This document shows, in pieces, positions 10,427 to 18,077 of a stretch of DNA of 43,567 bases. The stretch covers positions 1 through 43,567 of the forward strand of contig JABDGY010000014.1 of the NCBI GenBank assembly GCA_013285805.1. The letters run 5' to 3'. Position 1 is the stretch's first letter, and every line of letters starts with the position of its first letter. Origin of the DNA: Bacteroidota bacterium (lineage in GTDB: Bacteria > Bacteroidota > Bacteroidia > JABEUT01). The translations under genes and the position numbers were made by a program. The notes under the pieces were generated by a model. It was not told the origin of the DNA, did no database searches, and was given only the letters and a program-made list of their open reading frames with translations.

Positions 10427-10888
10427 ATGGAAACAACAATGGAAATAAACGTGAAAAAGAACAGTATTGTTATGTTGAATGAAGGTAAACTGGTCTATCG
10501 TAACTCAAAGCTATGTATGACAAAGGATTTGGGCTTGCATGGCAATATGTTCGGCGGAAAAATGATGTCGCTAATTGATGAAGTAACATCAATATTTGCG
10601 TGTGAAATATGCGATACACCGCGTATGATAACAAAGAAGATTGAAGAGGTGATTTTCGAAAGGCCCGTCAAGGTGGGCCAGATAATTAAAGTCTATTGCG
10701 GAATTGAAAAAATCGGGAACACATCAATAACCATTAAGGTAGAGGCAAGGGGCTATAACGTATATACCGAAGTCGAAAAACTTGTCTGTTCAACCCGAAT
10801 GATTTTTGTACGAATAGATGATGAAGGGAATGCCATCCCCATTTCTGACAAAATAAGGGGAAAATTTAAAAAGGAAGTTAACTTATAG
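10427..10888 (+). CDS. Acyl-CoA thioesterase, hotdog fold (4HBT family)
   Basis: 153 residues. Single hotdog domain with LHGNMFGGKMMSLIDEVTSIFA, the family's helix segment with 'N-x-F/L-x-GG-x-x-M-x-x-I/M-D', and RPVKVGQIIKVYCGIEKIG in the central strands. The family hydrolyses acyl-CoA thioesters; the acyl group cannot be predicted. It lies 17 bases after pheA and 30 bases before the DAHP synthase gene, all on one strand, which is unexpected company for an acyl-CoA thioesterase. A second hotdog protein (17556-18077) is only distantly similar. ATG at 10427 is the first start, and a second ATG at residue 5 is possible. Confidence 0.82.
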   Translation: METTMEINVKKNSIVMLNEGKLVYRNSKLCMTKDLGLHGNMFGGKMMSLIDEVTSIFACEICDTPRMITKKIEEVIFERPVKVGQIIKVYCGIEKIGNTSITIKVEARGYNVYTEVEKLVCSTRMIFVRIDDEGNAIPISDKIRGKFKKEVNL

Positions 10889-12043: not shown

Positions 12044-12118
12044 ATTTAACGGTTAGTAAACGACATTTAACCCTAAAAACTCGTATTTTCGCTATAAGTG
12101 ATTATGCTTAAAGGCGAT

Positions 12119-14563
12119 ATGAAAGTTTTAAGGCCACTGTTAGTTTGTATTTTTACTTTAATGCAGGTTCTGCGTGCACAAGGTGCTAACCTCACCGGCA
12201 AAATAACCGATGAGGCGGGGCAACCCCTTCCTTTTGTAGTAGTATATATTGATGGTACCACTTATGGCACCACAGCAAATGTCGATGGTATTTATTCCCT
12301 TGAATTAAAACCGGGCAAGTATACAATCGATTACCAGTTAATAGGATATACACAACATAAAGAGGCGGTTGAAATAATTAACTCGAATGTTACTCTTAAT
12401 GTTCAGTTAAAGGCTGAAGGCATTAAGATGAGCGAAGTAGTGGTGAATGGTAATGCCGAGGACCCTGCTTATGGAATAATTCGCAAAGCGATAGAGAAGA
12501 GAAAATTTTACCTGGAACAGGTTGATGCCTATTCTTGCGATGTATATATAAAGGGCTTACAGCGTATAACCAAGCATCCGCAAAAAATATTCGGACAGGA
12601 ATTGCATTTCAATGAGCTTGATTCTACTTCAGGAATTATTTACTTGTCGGAATCGGTTTCCAAGTTCAACTTTAAGCAGCCCGATAATATCAGGGAGGAA
12701 ATGATATCATCGAAGGTAAGTGGCAATAACCAGGCCTTCAGCTACAACCAGGCATCGGATATGCTGATTGATTTCTATAAGAACATAATACAGATTGATG
12801 TATTAAGTGAGCGTGGGCTAGTATCTCCTATAGCCAATGATGCCATGTTCTTTTATAAGTATCATTTAGCCGGTTCGTTTGTTGAAAACGGCAAGGTGAT
12901 AGACAAAATTCAGGTTATCCCCAAACGCAGTTACGACCCTGTTTTTAGGGGATATATTTACATACAGGAAGATACATGGCGCATACACAGCACCGATTTG
13001 TATTTGACTAAAGATGCCCAAATCAATTTCATCGATACCTTATTTGTAAGCCAATCGTACTTACCGGTAACGCCTGATGTGTGGATGCTCTTTTCAAATA
13101 AATTCAGGTTCAACTTCAATATTTTAGGAATACAGGGCAATGGAGTTTACGTATCGATCAATAAGAACTATGTGCTAAACCCCGATTTCCCTAAGCACTT
13201 CTTCAATGGAGAGGTGATGAAGATTGACGATGATGCAAATAAGAAAGATTCATCATACTGGAACCAGACACGCCCTGTGCCACTTACCAAAGAAGAAGAT
13301 AAAGATTATGTACGAAGGGATAGCATACATGCAAAGCACGAAACCAAAGAGTACCTTGATTCTGTTGATGCAAGGCGGAATAAACTAAAGCCATCAGCTA
13401 TTTACCGGGGCTACCGTTATTTCCAGCGCTATAAAAAACAGACATGGTTCGTGTCTCCCCTCATCCAGACTATAGGTTTTAATACGGTGCAGGGTTGGAA
13501 TGGGGGATTGAGAATAGGTTATAATAAGGAATATGAGGACAACAGACGTCTTACTATTATAACATCGGCCGGGTATGGGTTTTCAAATCAGCGTTGGCTG
13601 GGCGATGGATATGTTTACTATTCATATAATCCTGAGAAGCTGTCCTATTTCTATATAGGAGGAGGAGTGAAACCTGTGCAATTTAATGATGCAGCCCCTA
13701 TTACCCCATTCCTTAATTCGCTTTTTACCTTGTTCGAAGACCAGAACTATATGAAGCTTTACCAGAAAGCCAGTATTCACGCTGCTCATTCTACGGAGTT
13801 GGTGAATGGTTTAAAATTTACAGTAGGCTCAGAATATGCTTACCGTACCCCACTCATGAACACTACCGATTATAAACTTGTACAGGTTGGCTCAAGACAA
13901 TATACTTCAAACGACCCTCAATCGTCCACAAACGATTCTTCGTCTTTCCAGCATAATACCTCATGGACGGTTTGGGCGCAGTTTAAAATCAGCCTGAAGC
14001 AGAAATACTATACCCTACCGCACCAAAAAATAATAGTAGATACCAAGTATCCTATTATAACACTCGATTATCGGAAAGCTATTGGTGGTATTCCCGGGCT
14101 TAGTGCCAATTACGATTACGCAAAGGTTACCATATCAGGGAATATTAATTTTAAAATGTTTGGTGAAACCGAATATAGTGTGGCTGCAGCTCAATTCCTT
14201 ACCGAGAAAGATGTTTGGTTTATGGATTATCATCATTTCAATGGCGATGAGATTATTTTTTCTTCATTTGCGTTGAACAGTTACCATTTGTTGGACTATT
14301 ATAAATACAGTACGGCAGGCCCGTCTATTGAAGCACATGTTCAACATAATTTCCATGGTTTTCTTTTTAACAAAGTTCCATTGTTGCGCAAACTGAAGTT
14401 GAATGAAATGGTGGGAGTGAATTACCTGGTTACCGATGTGATACAATATTACGAGGTATTTGTCGGGGTGCAGAAGTTCAATGCCTTCAGGGTCGATTTT
14501 GCCACTTCGTTTGCCAATAATGCCAAGGTTACTGAAGGAATACGCATTGGCATAGGGTTTTAG
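12119..14563 (+). CDS. DUF5686 / CarboxypepD_reg-like outer-membrane protein
   Basis: About 815 residues from the chosen ATG. The signal peptide MKVLRPLLVCIFTLMQVLRAQ is followed by a CarboxypepD_reg-like beta-sandwich (ANLTGKITDEAGQPLPFVVV to about residue 105). A long region of DUF5686 type follows, with YSCDVYIKGLQRI and many amphipathic beta strands ending IRIGIGF, as expected for an outer-membrane barrel. The function is unknown. In-frame GTG (12098) and ATG (12104) exist upstream, but a near-consensus -7 box, TATTTTCG (12084-12091), puts transcription start close to 12095-12098, so 12104 or 12119 is more likely; 12119 gives the cleaner signal peptide. Confidence 0.8.
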   Translation: MKVLRPLLVCIFTLMQVLRAQGANLTGKITDEAGQPLPFVVVYIDGTTYGTTANVDGIYSLELKPGKYTIDYQLIGYTQHKEAVEIINSNVTLNVQLKAEGIKMSEVVVNGNAEDPAYGIIRKAIEKRKFYLEQVDAYSCDVYIKGLQRITKHPQKIFGQELHFNELDSTSGIIYLSESVSKFNFKQPDNIREEMISSKVSGNNQAFSYNQASDMLIDFYKNIIQIDVLSERGLVSPIANDAMFFYKYHLAGSFVENGKVIDKIQVIPKRSYDPVFRGYIYIQEDTWRIHSTDLYLTKDAQINFIDTLFVSQSYLPVTPDVWMLFSNKFRFNFNILGIQGNGVYVSINKNYVLNPDFPKHFFNGEVMKIDDDANKKDSSYWNQTRPVPLTKEEDKDYVRRDSIHAKHETKEYLDSVDARRNKLKPSAIYRGYRYFQRYKKQTWFVSPLIQTIGFNTVQGWNGGLRIGYNKEYEDNRRLTIITSAGYGFSNQRWLGDGYVYYSYNPEKLSYFYIGGGVKPVQFNDAAPITPFLNSLFTLFEDQNYMKLYQKASIHAAHSTELVNGLKFTVGSEYAYRTPLMNTTDYKLVQVGSRQYTSNDPQSSTNDSSSFQHNTSWTVWAQFKISLKQKYYTLPHQKIIVDTKYPIITLDYRKAIGGIPGLSANYDYAKVTISGNINFKMFGETEYSVAAAQFLTEKDVWFMDYHHFNGDEIIFSSFALNSYHLLDYYKYSTAGPSIEAHVQHNFHGFLFNKVPLLRKLKLNEMVGVNYLVTDVIQYYEVFVGVQKFNAFRVDFATSFANNAKVTEGIRIGIGF

Positions 14564-14604: not shown

Positions 14605-14612
14605 TATCTTTG
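14605..14612 (+). promoter_or_regulatory. -7 box (TAnnTTTG) for the desaturase operon; decides its start
   Basis: TATCTTTG is a full consensus match and lies 19 bases before ATG 14632. The open frame extends upstream of this box (to 14572), but a start there would precede transcription initiation, so 14632 is the supported start. Confidence 0.65.
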
Positions 14613-14631: not shown

Positions 14632-15600
14632 ATGGCTAAAAAGACAGAATTCTTTTATACGGAAGAAAAGGACCTTCACTTTGTGCGGCCGCTGGAGATT
14701 ATCCGTGAGCATCCTGAAATAAGGAGCTATATGGGTAGGAACAGAAATACTTTTTGGGTGACATTTATATTGGTTACCCTGCAGTTAGGTATTATGTACC
14801 TGGTTCATAACCTGGCATGGTATTGGGTATTGATAGTAGCTTATCTGGCAGGTGCTTTCCTGGTACATGCATTGTTTGTAATGGTGCACGAGTGTTCACA
14901 TAACCTTATTTTCCAGAAGAAGCAGAATAATACGCTGCTGGGTATTTTTGCCAATATGGCCATGTTCTTTCCAAGTTCAGTTTCATTCCAGCGTTACCAC
15001 CTTAAGCACCATGCTCACCAGGGAGTACATGAATATGATGCCGATTTACCATCGGAATGGGAAGCTCGTCTTGTCAATAACAGCACTTTAGGTAAAGCAT
15101 TATGGTTATTGCTTTATCCTGTAATTCAAACCTTGCGCGTACCTCGTATGAGAGAGATAAAACCTTTTGATGGATGGGTGGCTCTTAATATTATAGCTGT
15201 AGTAGGTGTTGATGTGGCTGCGTGGATATTTTTAGGCCCAATGGCATTTGTTTACCTGTTTGCTTCCATGTTCTTTTCAGTTGGGCTGCACCCGCTAGGT
15301 GCACGCTGGGTACAAGAGCATTATATGACCAGCGATGACATTCAGGAAACCCACAGTTACTATGGTCCGCTTAATACTATTGCTTTTAACGTGGGTCACC
15401 ATAACGAACATCATGATTTTCCTTCTGTTCCATGGAATAACCTTCCAAAAGTACGCCAGGCAGGAGCCAAGTGGTACAACAGCATTCCATATCATACTTC
15501 GTGGACAAAACTCTGGCTGAAGTTTCTCTTCGACAGAAACGTATCTATATACCACCGTATGCTCAGGAAAAAGCCTGAGAAAAAAACTGTAAAGGCTTAA
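14632..15600 (+). CDS. Membrane fatty-acid/sphingolipid desaturase, resembling dihydroceramide delta4-desaturase (DEGS)
   Basis: 322 residues from the promoter-supported ATG. The three histidine boxes of a membrane di-iron desaturase are clear: HECSH (86-90), HLKHH (123-127) and HNEHH (257-261), among about four to six hydrophobic segments. Beyond the generic family, the N-terminus (FFYTEEKDL then LEIIREHPEIRSYMG) resembles the Lipid_DES N-terminal domain. The block VGLHPLGARWVQEHYM (217-232), the HSYYGPLN segment (241-248) and FNVGHHNEHHDFPSVP (252-267) resemble eukaryotic DEGS1 very closely as I remember it; DEGS1 is also about 323 residues. It would then introduce a delta4 double bond in a dihydroceramide or related sphingoid lipid. 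gpsA follows 7 bases downstream, which fits a lipid operon. The substrate is inferred. Confidence 0.85.
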   Translation: MAKKTEFFYTEEKDLHFVRPLEIIREHPEIRSYMGRNRNTFWVTFILVTLQLGIMYLVHNLAWYWVLIVAYLAGAFLVHALFVMVHECSHNLIFQKKQNNTLLGIFANMAMFFPSSVSFQRYHLKHHAHQGVHEYDADLPSEWEARLVNNSTLGKALWLLLYPVIQTLRVPRMREIKPFDGWVALNIIAVVGVDVAAWIFLGPMAFVYLFASMFFSVGLHPLGARWVQEHYMTSDDIQETHSYYGPLNTIAFNVGHHNEHHDFPSVPWNNLPKVRQAGAKWYNSIPYHTSWTKLWLKFLFDRNVSIYHRMLRKKPEKKTVKA

Positions 15601-15607
15601 TAGAAGC

Positions 15608-16603
15608 ATGGCAGAAAAAAGAATAGCCATTCTGGGTGCAGGTAGCTGGGCTACTGCATTGGTTAAGATATTTTCAAATAACGTGCCGCAAATTGCCTGG
15701 TGGGTTAGGAAAAAGGAAAATGTCGATTACATTAAAAAGTACAAACACAATCCCAATTACCTTAGCGATATTGAAATTGACCTTAACAAAGTCACCATTT
15801 ATACTAACCTTAAGGAAGCAATAGCGAATGCCGATATATTGATAATTGCTGTGCCATCGGCATTTATGAGCGAAGCTTTTGCCGGAGTTAAGAAAGATGA
15901 CTTTAAAGGTAAGCTTCTGTTCTCAGCGGTAAAAGGTACATTGCCCGATAAGAAAATGATGGTGAGCCAGTTCTTCCAACAGCAATTTAATATTCCAATT
16001 TCATCAATGGGCATCATAGCTGGTCCTTGTCACGCTGAAGAGGTGGCTATGGAAAAGCTTTCGTACTTAACTGTTGGCTGCGATGATTTGAAAGAAGCCC
16101 GCAATCTTGCCAACTTACTTACATGCCGCTATTTAAAAGCCGGAATATCTTCAGATATGTTAGGCATAGAATATGCAGCAGCCTTGAAAAATATTTTTGC
16201 TATTGCCAGCGGTATATGCCATGGACTAGGTTATGGCGATAACTTCCAGGCAGTGCTTGTCGCTAATGCCATACAGGAAATAAAGCGTTTTATTGATACG
16301 GTTCACCCTATACAAAGAGATACCAATGCTTCAGCTTATTTAGGCGACTTGCTGGTTACAGCATATTCTCAGTTTAGCCGAAACCGTACGTTAGGAAGTA
16401 TGGTGGGTAAGGGCTATTCTGTGAAATACGCACAGATGGAAATGAATATGGTTGCGGAAGGATTTTATGCCGCTAAAACTATTTATACCATCAACCAGCA
16501 GTATAAAGTAGAGATGCCCATTTGCGAAGCTGTGTACAGAATACTGTATGAGAAAATGTCGCCCTCAGTAGAAATTCGTTTACTTGCCGAAAAGCTTGCG
16601 TAA
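15608..16603 (+). CDS. gpsA: Glycerol-3-phosphate dehydrogenase [NAD(P)+]
   Basis: 331 residues, the normal length. N-terminal Rossmann loop ILGAGSWATALVKIF; SAVKGTLPDKKMMVSQFF and GPCHAEEVAMEKLSYLTVG match the family's central motifs. ALKNIFAIASGICHGLGYGDN carries the catalytic lysine region, and the all-helical C-terminal domain follows. It reduces dihydroxyacetone phosphate to sn-glycerol-3-phosphate for phospholipid synthesis. It follows the desaturase gene by 7 bases, and its TAA overlaps the next ATG by one base. Confidence 0.95.
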   Translation: MAEKRIAILGAGSWATALVKIFSNNVPQIAWWVRKKENVDYIKKYKHNPNYLSDIEIDLNKVTIYTNLKEAIANADILIIAVPSAFMSEAFAGVKKDDFKGKLLFSAVKGTLPDKKMMVSQFFQQQFNIPISSMGIIAGPCHAEEVAMEKLSYLTVGCDDLKEARNLANLLTCRYLKAGISSDMLGIEYAAALKNIFAIASGICHGLGYGDNFQAVLVANAIQEIKRFIDTVHPIQRDTNASAYLGDLLVTAYSQFSRNRTLGSMVGKGYSVKYAQMEMNMVAEGFYAAKTIYTINQQYKVEMPICEAVYRILYEKMSPSVEIRLLAEKLA

Positions 16604-17496
16604 TGGAAACCTTAGCCAATTGTCCCATATGTAATTCTTCGGCCTTTACTCCTTTTATAGAGTGTACCGATTATACGGTAAGTAAGGATAAGTTCGCCAT
16701 TGTACAATGCAGTTCATGCGGATTCAAACTAACAAACCCACGCCCTGCAGAAGAGGAAGCAGGGAAATATTACCAGTCGGAAGACTACATATCGCATTCC
16801 AATACCAGTAAAGGGCTTGTAAACAATATGTACCAGCGTGCAAGGAAGTTTACACTTAAGCGCAAATTGAAACTGGTAACTAAAGTCAGCAGTAAGCAAC
16901 AGGGTAATTTACTCGACCTTGGTTGCGGAACAGGAGAGTTTTTAAATACCTGTAAAGAAGCCGGCTGGAAAGTGCAGGGTATTGAACCTTCGCCCGGTGC
17001 AAGGGAATTCGGAGCTAAACAATATGGTTTACAGGTCCATGAAATAAATAACTGGCAACCATTTGCCGATAATAGCTTTGATATAGTTACTGCATGGCAT
17101 GTACTTGAACACGTTTACCAGATTGAAGAAACTATCAGGCAGGTAAAAAGAATATTATCACCCACGGGCACGTTTATTGTGGCACTGCCCAATTGCAGTT
17201 CAGCCGATGCAGCATTCTATAAACAATACTGGGCAGCGTATGATGTGCCACGCCATATATGGCATTTTACACCTAAAGATGTGAAAGCGCTTTTTGAAAA
17301 GCAGGGTTTTGCATTGAAAGAAGTATTACCCATGCCCCTCGATGCCTATTATATATGCATGCTTAGCGAAAAGTATAAAACAGGCAGCATTAATTATGGC
17401 AGGGCTGCTGTTCATGGCTGGGCAAGTAACCGCCAGGCCCATGCCAATGGCTCGACGTACTCAAGCCAGATATATATATTGAAGCCGGTTAAATAA
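16603..17496 (+). CDS. SAM-dependent methyltransferase with N-terminal zinc-ribbon-like segment
   Basis: 297 residues. An N-terminal zinc-ribbon-like part (NCPICNSSAF, then VQCSSCGFKLTNPRP) precedes a class I methyltransferase fold: motif I LLDLGCGTGEFL near residue 103, IEPSPGAREFG after the second strand, and DIVTAWHVLEHVY at motif IV/post-I. This architecture is common in Methyltransf_23-like proteins of sugar, lipid or small-molecule pathways, but the substrate cannot be assigned. The start overlaps the gpsA stop by one base (TAATG), so translation is probably coupled. Confidence 0.82.
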   Translation: METLANCPICNSSAFTPFIECTDYTVSKDKFAIVQCSSCGFKLTNPRPAEEEAGKYYQSEDYISHSNTSKGLVNNMYQRARKFTLKRKLKLVTKVSSKQQGNLLDLGCGTGEFLNTCKEAGWKVQGIEPSPGAREFGAKQYGLQVHEINNWQPFADNSFDIVTAWHVLEHVYQIEETIRQVKRILSPTGTFIVALPNCSSADAAFYKQYWAAYDVPRHIWHFTPKDVKALFEKQGFALKEVLPMPLDAYYICMLSEKYKTGSINYGRAAVHGWASNRQAHANGSTYSSQIYILKPVK

Positions 17497-17555: not shown

Positions 17556-18077
17556 ATGAAAACAAAGACTCCCAAAGAAAGTTACGCTATATCAACCCAC
17601 CTTGTATTGCCCAATGAAACTAACCTGTTAGGCAACCTTATGGGTGGAAGGTTATTACACTGGATGGATATTACTGCTGCCATTGCAGCACATCGCCATA
17701 GTCAACGTGTGGTGGTAACGGCATCGGTTAACCATGTATCGTTTGAACGTGCTATAAAGCTGGGCGATTATGTAACCATTGAAGCAAAGGTTTCCCGTGC
17801 ATTTAATACATCTATGGAAGTATTTTTAGATGTAACCGTAGAGACAGGTTTTACCGGTGAAAGGGTAAAATCGAATGATGCAACGTATGTATTTGTTGCT
17901 GTAGACCAGGTGGGCAGGCCTATTGAAGTACCGCAGTTGACTCCCGAAACTCCACTGGAAAAAGAGCGGTATGATACGGCGTTAACAAGAAGGCAATTGA
18001 GCCTTCTATTATCAGGTAAGGTAAAACCTGATGCAGTTCCCGAACTAAGAGATTTATTGCTTGGAAAAAATAAATAA
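17556..18077 (+). CDS. Acyl-CoA thioesterase, hotdog fold (YciA/ACOT-like)
   Basis: 173 residues. The segment ETNLLGNLMGGRLLHWMDITAAIAA is the characteristic 'N-x-x-G-x-x-MGG-x-x-L-x-W-M-D' of YciA/BACH-type hotdog thioesterases, and VSFERAIKLGDYVTIEAKV is the following strand pair. It hydrolyses acyl-CoA in the cytoplasm; the chain length is unknown. It is first in a tight three-gene operon (gaps of 2 and 1 bases) with a cobalamin adenosyltransferase and a Ppx/GppA phosphatase, which do not form an obvious pathway with it. Confidence 0.87.
   Translation: MKTKTPKESYAISTHLVLPNETNLLGNLMGGRLLHWMDITAAIAAHRHSQRVVVTASVNHVSFERAIKLGDYVTIEAKVSRAFNTSMEVFLDVTVETGFTGERVKSNDATYVFVAVDQVGRPIEVPQLTPETPLEKERYDTALTRRQLSLLLSGKVKPDAVPELRDLLLGKNK

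Follow-up and report, generated by a model that had tools for sequence, protein, structure and literature searches.

In animals and plants the desaturase DES converts dihydroceramide to ceramide, and the 4E double bond that distinguishes the two lipids is commonly regarded as a eukaryotic mark. A dihydroceramide substrate requires the presence in the cell of serine palmitoyltransferase (SPT), the first enzyme of ceramide synthesis. Sulfonolipids are sulfur-bearing ceramide look-alikes. A DES-like gene in a Bacteroidota genome raises the question of whether its product is a genuine member of the DES family and, if so, which lipid it would act on. The gene lies in a stretch of 43,567 nucleotides (contig JABDGY010000014.1), termed here the window. 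Genomes and loci compared with it are designated by G and L numbers, respectively.

The desaturase gene and its product

The predicted desaturase gene and its main features are presented in Table 1. An alternative longer frame of the gene starts at TTG 14572, and homology to relatives begins at the ATG. A TATCTTTG motif, located at window positions 14605-14612, ~20 bases upstream of the ATG and within the longer frame, resembles the Bacteroidota -7 promoter element, the consensus of which is TAnnTTTG. The ATG start is favoured because this promoter-like motif sits inside the TTG-started frame. The blocks quoted in the preliminary description, including FFYTEEKDL (residues 7-15), HPEIRSYMG (residues 27-35) and FNVGHHNEHHDFPSVP (residues 252-267), and the three histidine boxes are all found in the 322-residue product. 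The length, described previously as practically that of DEGS, compares with 323 residues for animal DES.

Table 1. Coordinates of the predicted desaturase, its sequence blocks and the genes that follow it in the window
Feature	Coordinates	Strand	Basis
Predicted DES-family membrane desaturase, 322 aa + stop (322 codons, ATG to TAA)	14632..15600	+	ORF, Pfam, similarity to eukaryotic DES
Lipid_DES (PF08557) N-terminal domain, residues 4-37	14641..14742	+	hmmscan 23.6 bits, cut-off 23
FA_desaturase (PF00487) domain, residues 63-277	14818..15462	+	102.5 bits
Histidine box 1, HECSH, residues 86-90	14887..14901	+	H86, E87 and H90 invariant in 89/89 distinct bacterial relatives
Histidine box 2, HLKHH, residues 123-127	14998..15012	+	H123, H126 and H127 invariant, 89/89
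GLHPLGARWVQEHYM block, residues 218-232	15283..15327	+	G218, H220, P221, E229 and H230 common to eukaryotic DES
HSYYGPLN block, residues 241-248	15352..15375	+	Alignment columns
Histidine box 3, HNEHH, residues 257-261, inside FNVGHHNEHHDFP	15400..15414	+	Invariant, 89/89
GpsA-type glycerol-3-phosphate dehydrogenase	15608..16603	+	7-base gap 3' of desaturase
Class I methyltransferase, next after gpsA	16603..17496	+	

Membership of the DES family

Domain searches with hmmscan identified both PF00487 (E 4e-29) and PF08557 (E 3e-5) in the window protein, and at these values, above the gathering score in both cases, a chance match is excluded. The Lipid_DES match, which the preliminary description had named as a check, passes narrowly. 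When the whole of the window's own genome was searched with PF08557, a single place was found, the desaturase gene (27.2 bits), while the same search of 14 control genomes returned no match. Four bacterial relatives score 43-53 bits with this model. The eukaryotic DES references used here are one animal and one plant sequence that do not come from database records; the animal sequence is supported by its score of 74.3 bits with PF08557 across the full 37 positions. The window protein displays 38% and 39% identity with these animal and plant DES, respectively, over ~310 residues (E 3e-78 and 9e-78), and all 93 bacterial relatives tested align with the same two sequences (34-42% with the animal and 37-44% with the plant enzyme). 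Sixty-six alignment columns are common to the two non-database eukaryotic rows and to 90% or more of the 89 distinct bacterial rows, and within the HSYYGPLN block the same holds for S242, Y243, Y244, G245, L247 and N248.

In BLAST comparisons with the remaining FA_desaturase proteins from the same genome and its sisters (G000, G001, G005, G006 and G184; DES set aside), the window protein reaches an E of 2e-5 at best. A quick tree of 99 rows, with long branches and comprising the two non-database eukaryotic rows and seven other PF00487 proteins, splits DES and the eukaryotic rows from these seven with SH-aLRT of 99-100, so that the phylogeny suggested earlier groups the protein with eukaryotic DES and apart from other desaturases. 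No named desaturase or oxygenase model of NCBIfam was matched above its cut-off, the best of seven matches reaching 33.8 bits where 350 are required. The window protein thus shares the FA_desaturase domain and the histidine boxes with acyl-lipid desaturases and carotenoid oxygenases (DesA, CrtR, CrtW), but differs from them in the sub-cut-off status of all seven NCBIfam matches and in its weak similarity to sister-genome desaturases. It resembles eukaryotic DES (DEGS1) in its length, N-terminal Lipid_DES stretch, three histidine boxes and YYGPLN and NVGxHNEHHDFP blocks, and is unlike it in a borderline Lipid_DES score (23.6 bits, versus 74.3 bits for the non-database animal protein) and in its bacterial hosts, many of which are without SPT. 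Judged from sequence, membership of the DES family is well supported, the weak point being the two eukaryotic rows, which are not database sequences. The earlier proposal of a DES homologue rather than an acyl-lipid desaturase agrees with the Lipid_DES match, the full-length eukaryotic similarity and the separation from bacterial desaturases.

The AlphaFold2 model of the window protein is confident and helical (mean pLDDT of 88.7). Structural matches of this predicted fold, obtained with Foldseek, are of a general desaturase/AlkB type and include giant-virus desaturases, FtAlkB, and 8xks_K and 8xqw_M, which are chains of chloroplast motor complexes; such matches to a model say nothing about the substrate of the desaturase. 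When the PDB was searched with phmmer, allowing E values as high as 1, the protein gave one chance match and no DEGS.

Distribution of the desaturase

The desaturase is present in all 11 genomes of the window's genus. PF08557 matches above the cut-off were identified in 13 of 40 genomes (own genome included), comprising the 11 genus members together with G016 and G032. Across the class, 197 evenly sampled genomes included 13 with the gene, always with at least 413 bits, and nothing else was retrieved at E 1e-40. A scan of genome contigs revealed at least 501 confirmed relatives on contig stretches, and the 80 listed among them carry Bacteroidota names with one exception. The DES family is widespread in Bacteroidota and is no oddity of this genome. 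The exception (L051) is a relative with 55% identity whose contig, 6.4 kb long, bears the label candidate division KSB1; either the gene moved out of Bacteroidota by transfer or the contig was misbinned. In viral contigs, 91 pattern matches included no confirmed relative of the desaturase, and a plasmid search gave one weak match, an Anabaena desaturase (29%). Local acquisition from a eukaryotic or viral source in recent times is ruled out by the presence of the gene throughout the genus, by the number of relatives and by a matching GC content (0.422 in the gene, 0.413 in the window).

SPT and SulA in the genus and in enumerated genomes

The alpha-oxoamine synthases enumerated in the congeners G001 (98% complete) and G005 (96% complete) are Kbl, SulA, BioF-like and PRK07505-like enzymes, and SPT was not found among them. 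NCBIfam models were run on ten of the twenty synthases, none of them from G005, for which the classes derive from scores and from the SulA search. The SulA protein comprises 414 residues in G001 and is cut, at 376 residues, in G005. Scores of the G001 protein are 613.7 bits with SulA (7u7h), 578.5 bits with 28eh, a cysteate-C-fatty acyltransferase, and 248.5 bits with SPT (3a2b). A report on SulA describes a Lys that is replaced by Ala in Spt (PMC9304779), and the G001 protein carries the SulA-type Lys. SulA was also detected in the genus member G006. Among the 13 genomes, the CFB-type SPT model scored above its cut-off in G010 and G016, with a near-match in G032 (505 bits); this places SPT in one of the 11 genus genomes, G010, where the SPT gene is followed by an epimerase/reductase-like gene. 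In the window's own genome, which is 60.4% complete, SPT and SulA were both undetected.

A similar picture emerges from G134, G153 and G162 (99-100% complete), which contain Kbl and SulA, with a BioF-like enzyme in G134 and G153 and probably a PRK07505-like enzyme in G134 (the protein of L124 begins like that of L121); SPT was not among the alpha-oxoamine synthases found in these three genomes. G184 (99% complete) carries the desaturase without SulA and without SPT, its SulA-negative status in the 197-genome sample being deduced from its not being named among the positives. SulA is absent from G184, G207 and G213. G134, which belongs to the same genus as G184 (loci L115, L121 and L141), has SulA. 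The protein adjacent to SPT in G016, a candidate N-acyltransferase, has a homologue in 15 of the 16 genomes searched, all except G000. Homologues with 56% identity to this SPT neighbour occur in G010 (L153, G010:C301), with SPT, and in G006 (L152, G006:C173:16423-17538), where SPT was undetected; this gives a hint that the SPT of G006 was recently lost or is unassembled.

SPT and SulA across the wider set of carriers

Fifty carriers of the desaturase were taken from 80 named loci, isolates and large contigs being preferred; three of them probably correspond to G001, G009 and G032. SulA was identified in 48 of the 50 carriers, with at least 654 bits, and SPT in 33, the latter in a search at E 1e-120 that a proteobacterial-type SPT would escape, unlike in the enumerated genomes. 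All 17 carriers that lack SPT possess SulA, while the two that lack SulA, Mucilaginibacter roseus and Mucilaginibacter sp. UR6-1, both possess SPT. Detection of SulA in 96% of the carriers suggests that missing assembly cannot explain the 17 absent SPTs. The DES tree of the 50 carriers requires at least nine changes of SPT state, and the desaturase gene therefore persists without SPT. No column of the DES alignment separates SPT-less from SPT-bearing carriers.

In the class sample, SulA was found in 173 and SPT in 15 of the 197 genomes. With the own genome excluded, SPT is enriched together with the desaturase (5 of 12 carriers versus 10 of 184 others, p = 0.0008, kinship not corrected). SulA displays no statistical link to the desaturase (11 of 12 carriers versus 162 of 184 others, p = 1, own genome excluded) because it is near-universal in the class.

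Gene neighbourhood

The desaturase and the gpsA gene that follows it (Table 1) are probably co-transcribed. The order desaturase, gpsA, methyltransferase is the same in the window and in L147 and L149, all from genus members, while clustering of 80 loci plus the window revealed no conserved neighbourhood outside the genus, the top neighbour family occurring in at most 17 loci. Directly upstream of the desaturase, positions 12098-14563 of the window encode a large DUF5686 protein (801 bits), the N-terminus of which is carboxypeptidase-regulatory-like. Two YciA-like 4HBT acyl-CoA thioesterases, both below the cut-off of the YciA model, lie within 8 kb (10427-10888 and 17556-18077). A contig of G006, the one genome in which this arrangement was seen, carries the desaturase together with SulA, CysN and CysD in a span of less than 12 kb (L147, G006:C180, 4275-15911); the sulfate-activation genes CysN and CysD, placed between SulA and the desaturase, could supply sulfonate synthesis. 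In G001 and G005, proteins of ~816 residues that combine an N-terminal PRK07505-like alpha-oxoamine synthase domain with a long C-terminal part are encoded ~9-11 kb from the desaturase (L112, G001:C80, 1402-3849; L113, G005:C13, 253-2703).

Candidate substrates of the desaturase

The preliminary description proposed that the gene may make true ceramides. This reading is partly supported. It is weakened for the window's genus, where G001 and G005 are without SPT and one of 11 genomes contains it, and survives for SPT-bearing relatives, including the two SulA-less Mucilaginibacter, in which a ceramide product is possible. With SPT largely missing in the genus and SulA present, the group probably builds its lipids on capnine as the usual long-chain base, not on sphinganine. 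From the gene content of these genomes, the best explanation, which we hold with evenly balanced confidence, is that the protein is a DES-family di-iron desaturase with N-acylcapnine as its main substrate in the genus and dihydroceramide as a substrate where SPT exists. The metal-binding histidines of this membrane protein are intact. By analogy with the DES family, the enzyme would use O2, together with reducing equivalents from an electron donor, to take two hydrogens from the C4-C5 bond of an N-acylated long-chain base at a di-iron centre. In the genus, N-acylcapnine made via SulA would yield 4E-unsaturated capnoid lipids, as the pathway content of relatives suggests; dihydroceramide may also be desaturated by the same enzyme family in SPT-bearing relatives. 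Flavocristamide A is a 4E-unsaturated capnoid.

The claim of a sulfonolipid substrate derives from the SPT-less carriers, the close chemical resemblance between capnine and sphinganine, and the repeated changes of SPT state on the DES tree. Counting against it are the statistical association of the desaturase with SPT and not with SulA, the gene in G184 with neither enzyme, the two SulA-less Mucilaginibacter, the lack of detected SulA in the own genome, the absence of a conserved neighbourhood outside the genus, the homologue of the SPT neighbour in G006 and the absence of a DES column that tracks SPT. For the window's genus, such a substrate is preferred to ceramide, with roughly even chances. 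A broader statement, that the Bacteroidota DES clade consists of sulfonolipid delta4-desaturases acting mainly on N-acylcapnine, and on dihydroceramide where SPT was gained or kept, is tentative and falls somewhat short of even. Of the capnine pathway (SulA/CFAT/CapB and 3-ketocapnine reductase), SulA orthologues occur in nearly all of the 50 carriers and in G001, G005 and G006, in contrast with the own partial genome (60%), which shows no SulA. In the available parts of the literature, the enzymes of the sulfonolipid pathway are named without a desaturase (PMC10191378), no desaturase is named for this pathway in two further reports (PMC9304779, PMC11211663), and the accessible portions of open-access papers contained no description of a bacterial DES or of a sulfonolipid desaturase.

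The enrichment of SPT in carriers of the class sample, its presence in 33 of the 50 carriers, two of them without SulA, and its presence in the genus member G010 are what would be expected if the enzyme were a true dihydroceramide delta4-desaturase that makes 4E-sphingenine ceramides, with SPT seemingly lost just where a genome is incomplete or unrepresentative. This is unlikely, however, as the near-complete genomes G001, G005, G134, G153 and G162 are without SPT, and 17 of the 50 carriers lack it while 48 show SulA. G184, with the desaturase and neither SPT nor SulA, would fit a DES-family enzyme redirected to other lipids, such as phospholipid acyl chains or amino lipids, and unconnected with long-chain bases, and the next gene in the genus, gpsA, is a phospholipid-precursor gene. 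Such a role is rather improbable, given that the blocks resembling eukaryotic DES span the full length of the protein, including the N-terminal Lipid_DES stretch, that carrier genomes already contain several further FA_desaturase proteins, and that all 50 carriers possess SPT or SulA, although SulA is common anyway.

A hydroxylase similar to DEGS2, acting on the long-chain base to give hydroxy-capnoids such as RIF-1 with its 5-hydroxy base, has a slim chance of being correct. The desaturase gene occurs in MAGs labelled Cyclobacteriaceae (L061, L073 and L089), the family to which Algoriphagus belongs. DEGS2 makes phytoceramides (PMC11765627), and RIF-1 from Algoriphagus carries a 5-hydroxyl on its capnine base (PMC3463246); on the other side, no sequence feature examined distinguishes a desaturase from a hydroxylase.

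Implications for sulfonolipid biology

The existence of a widespread bacterial DES clade means that the 4E double bond cannot be presumed eukaryotic. A desaturase that persists with sulfonolipid synthesis but without sphingolipid synthesis predicts unsaturated capnoid lipids, and a sulfonolipid delta4-desaturase, if this assignment is true, would be a missing tailoring step of sulfonolipid biosynthesis. Sulfonolipids trigger multicellular development of a choanoflagellate (PMC3463246) and are discussed as immune modulators (PMC11211663); in view of these roles, their unsaturation could matter biologically. Should N-acylcapnine indeed be the substrate, bacteria could show eukaryotes unsaturated sulfonates that resemble sphingosine-1-phosphate and ceramide-1-phosphate.
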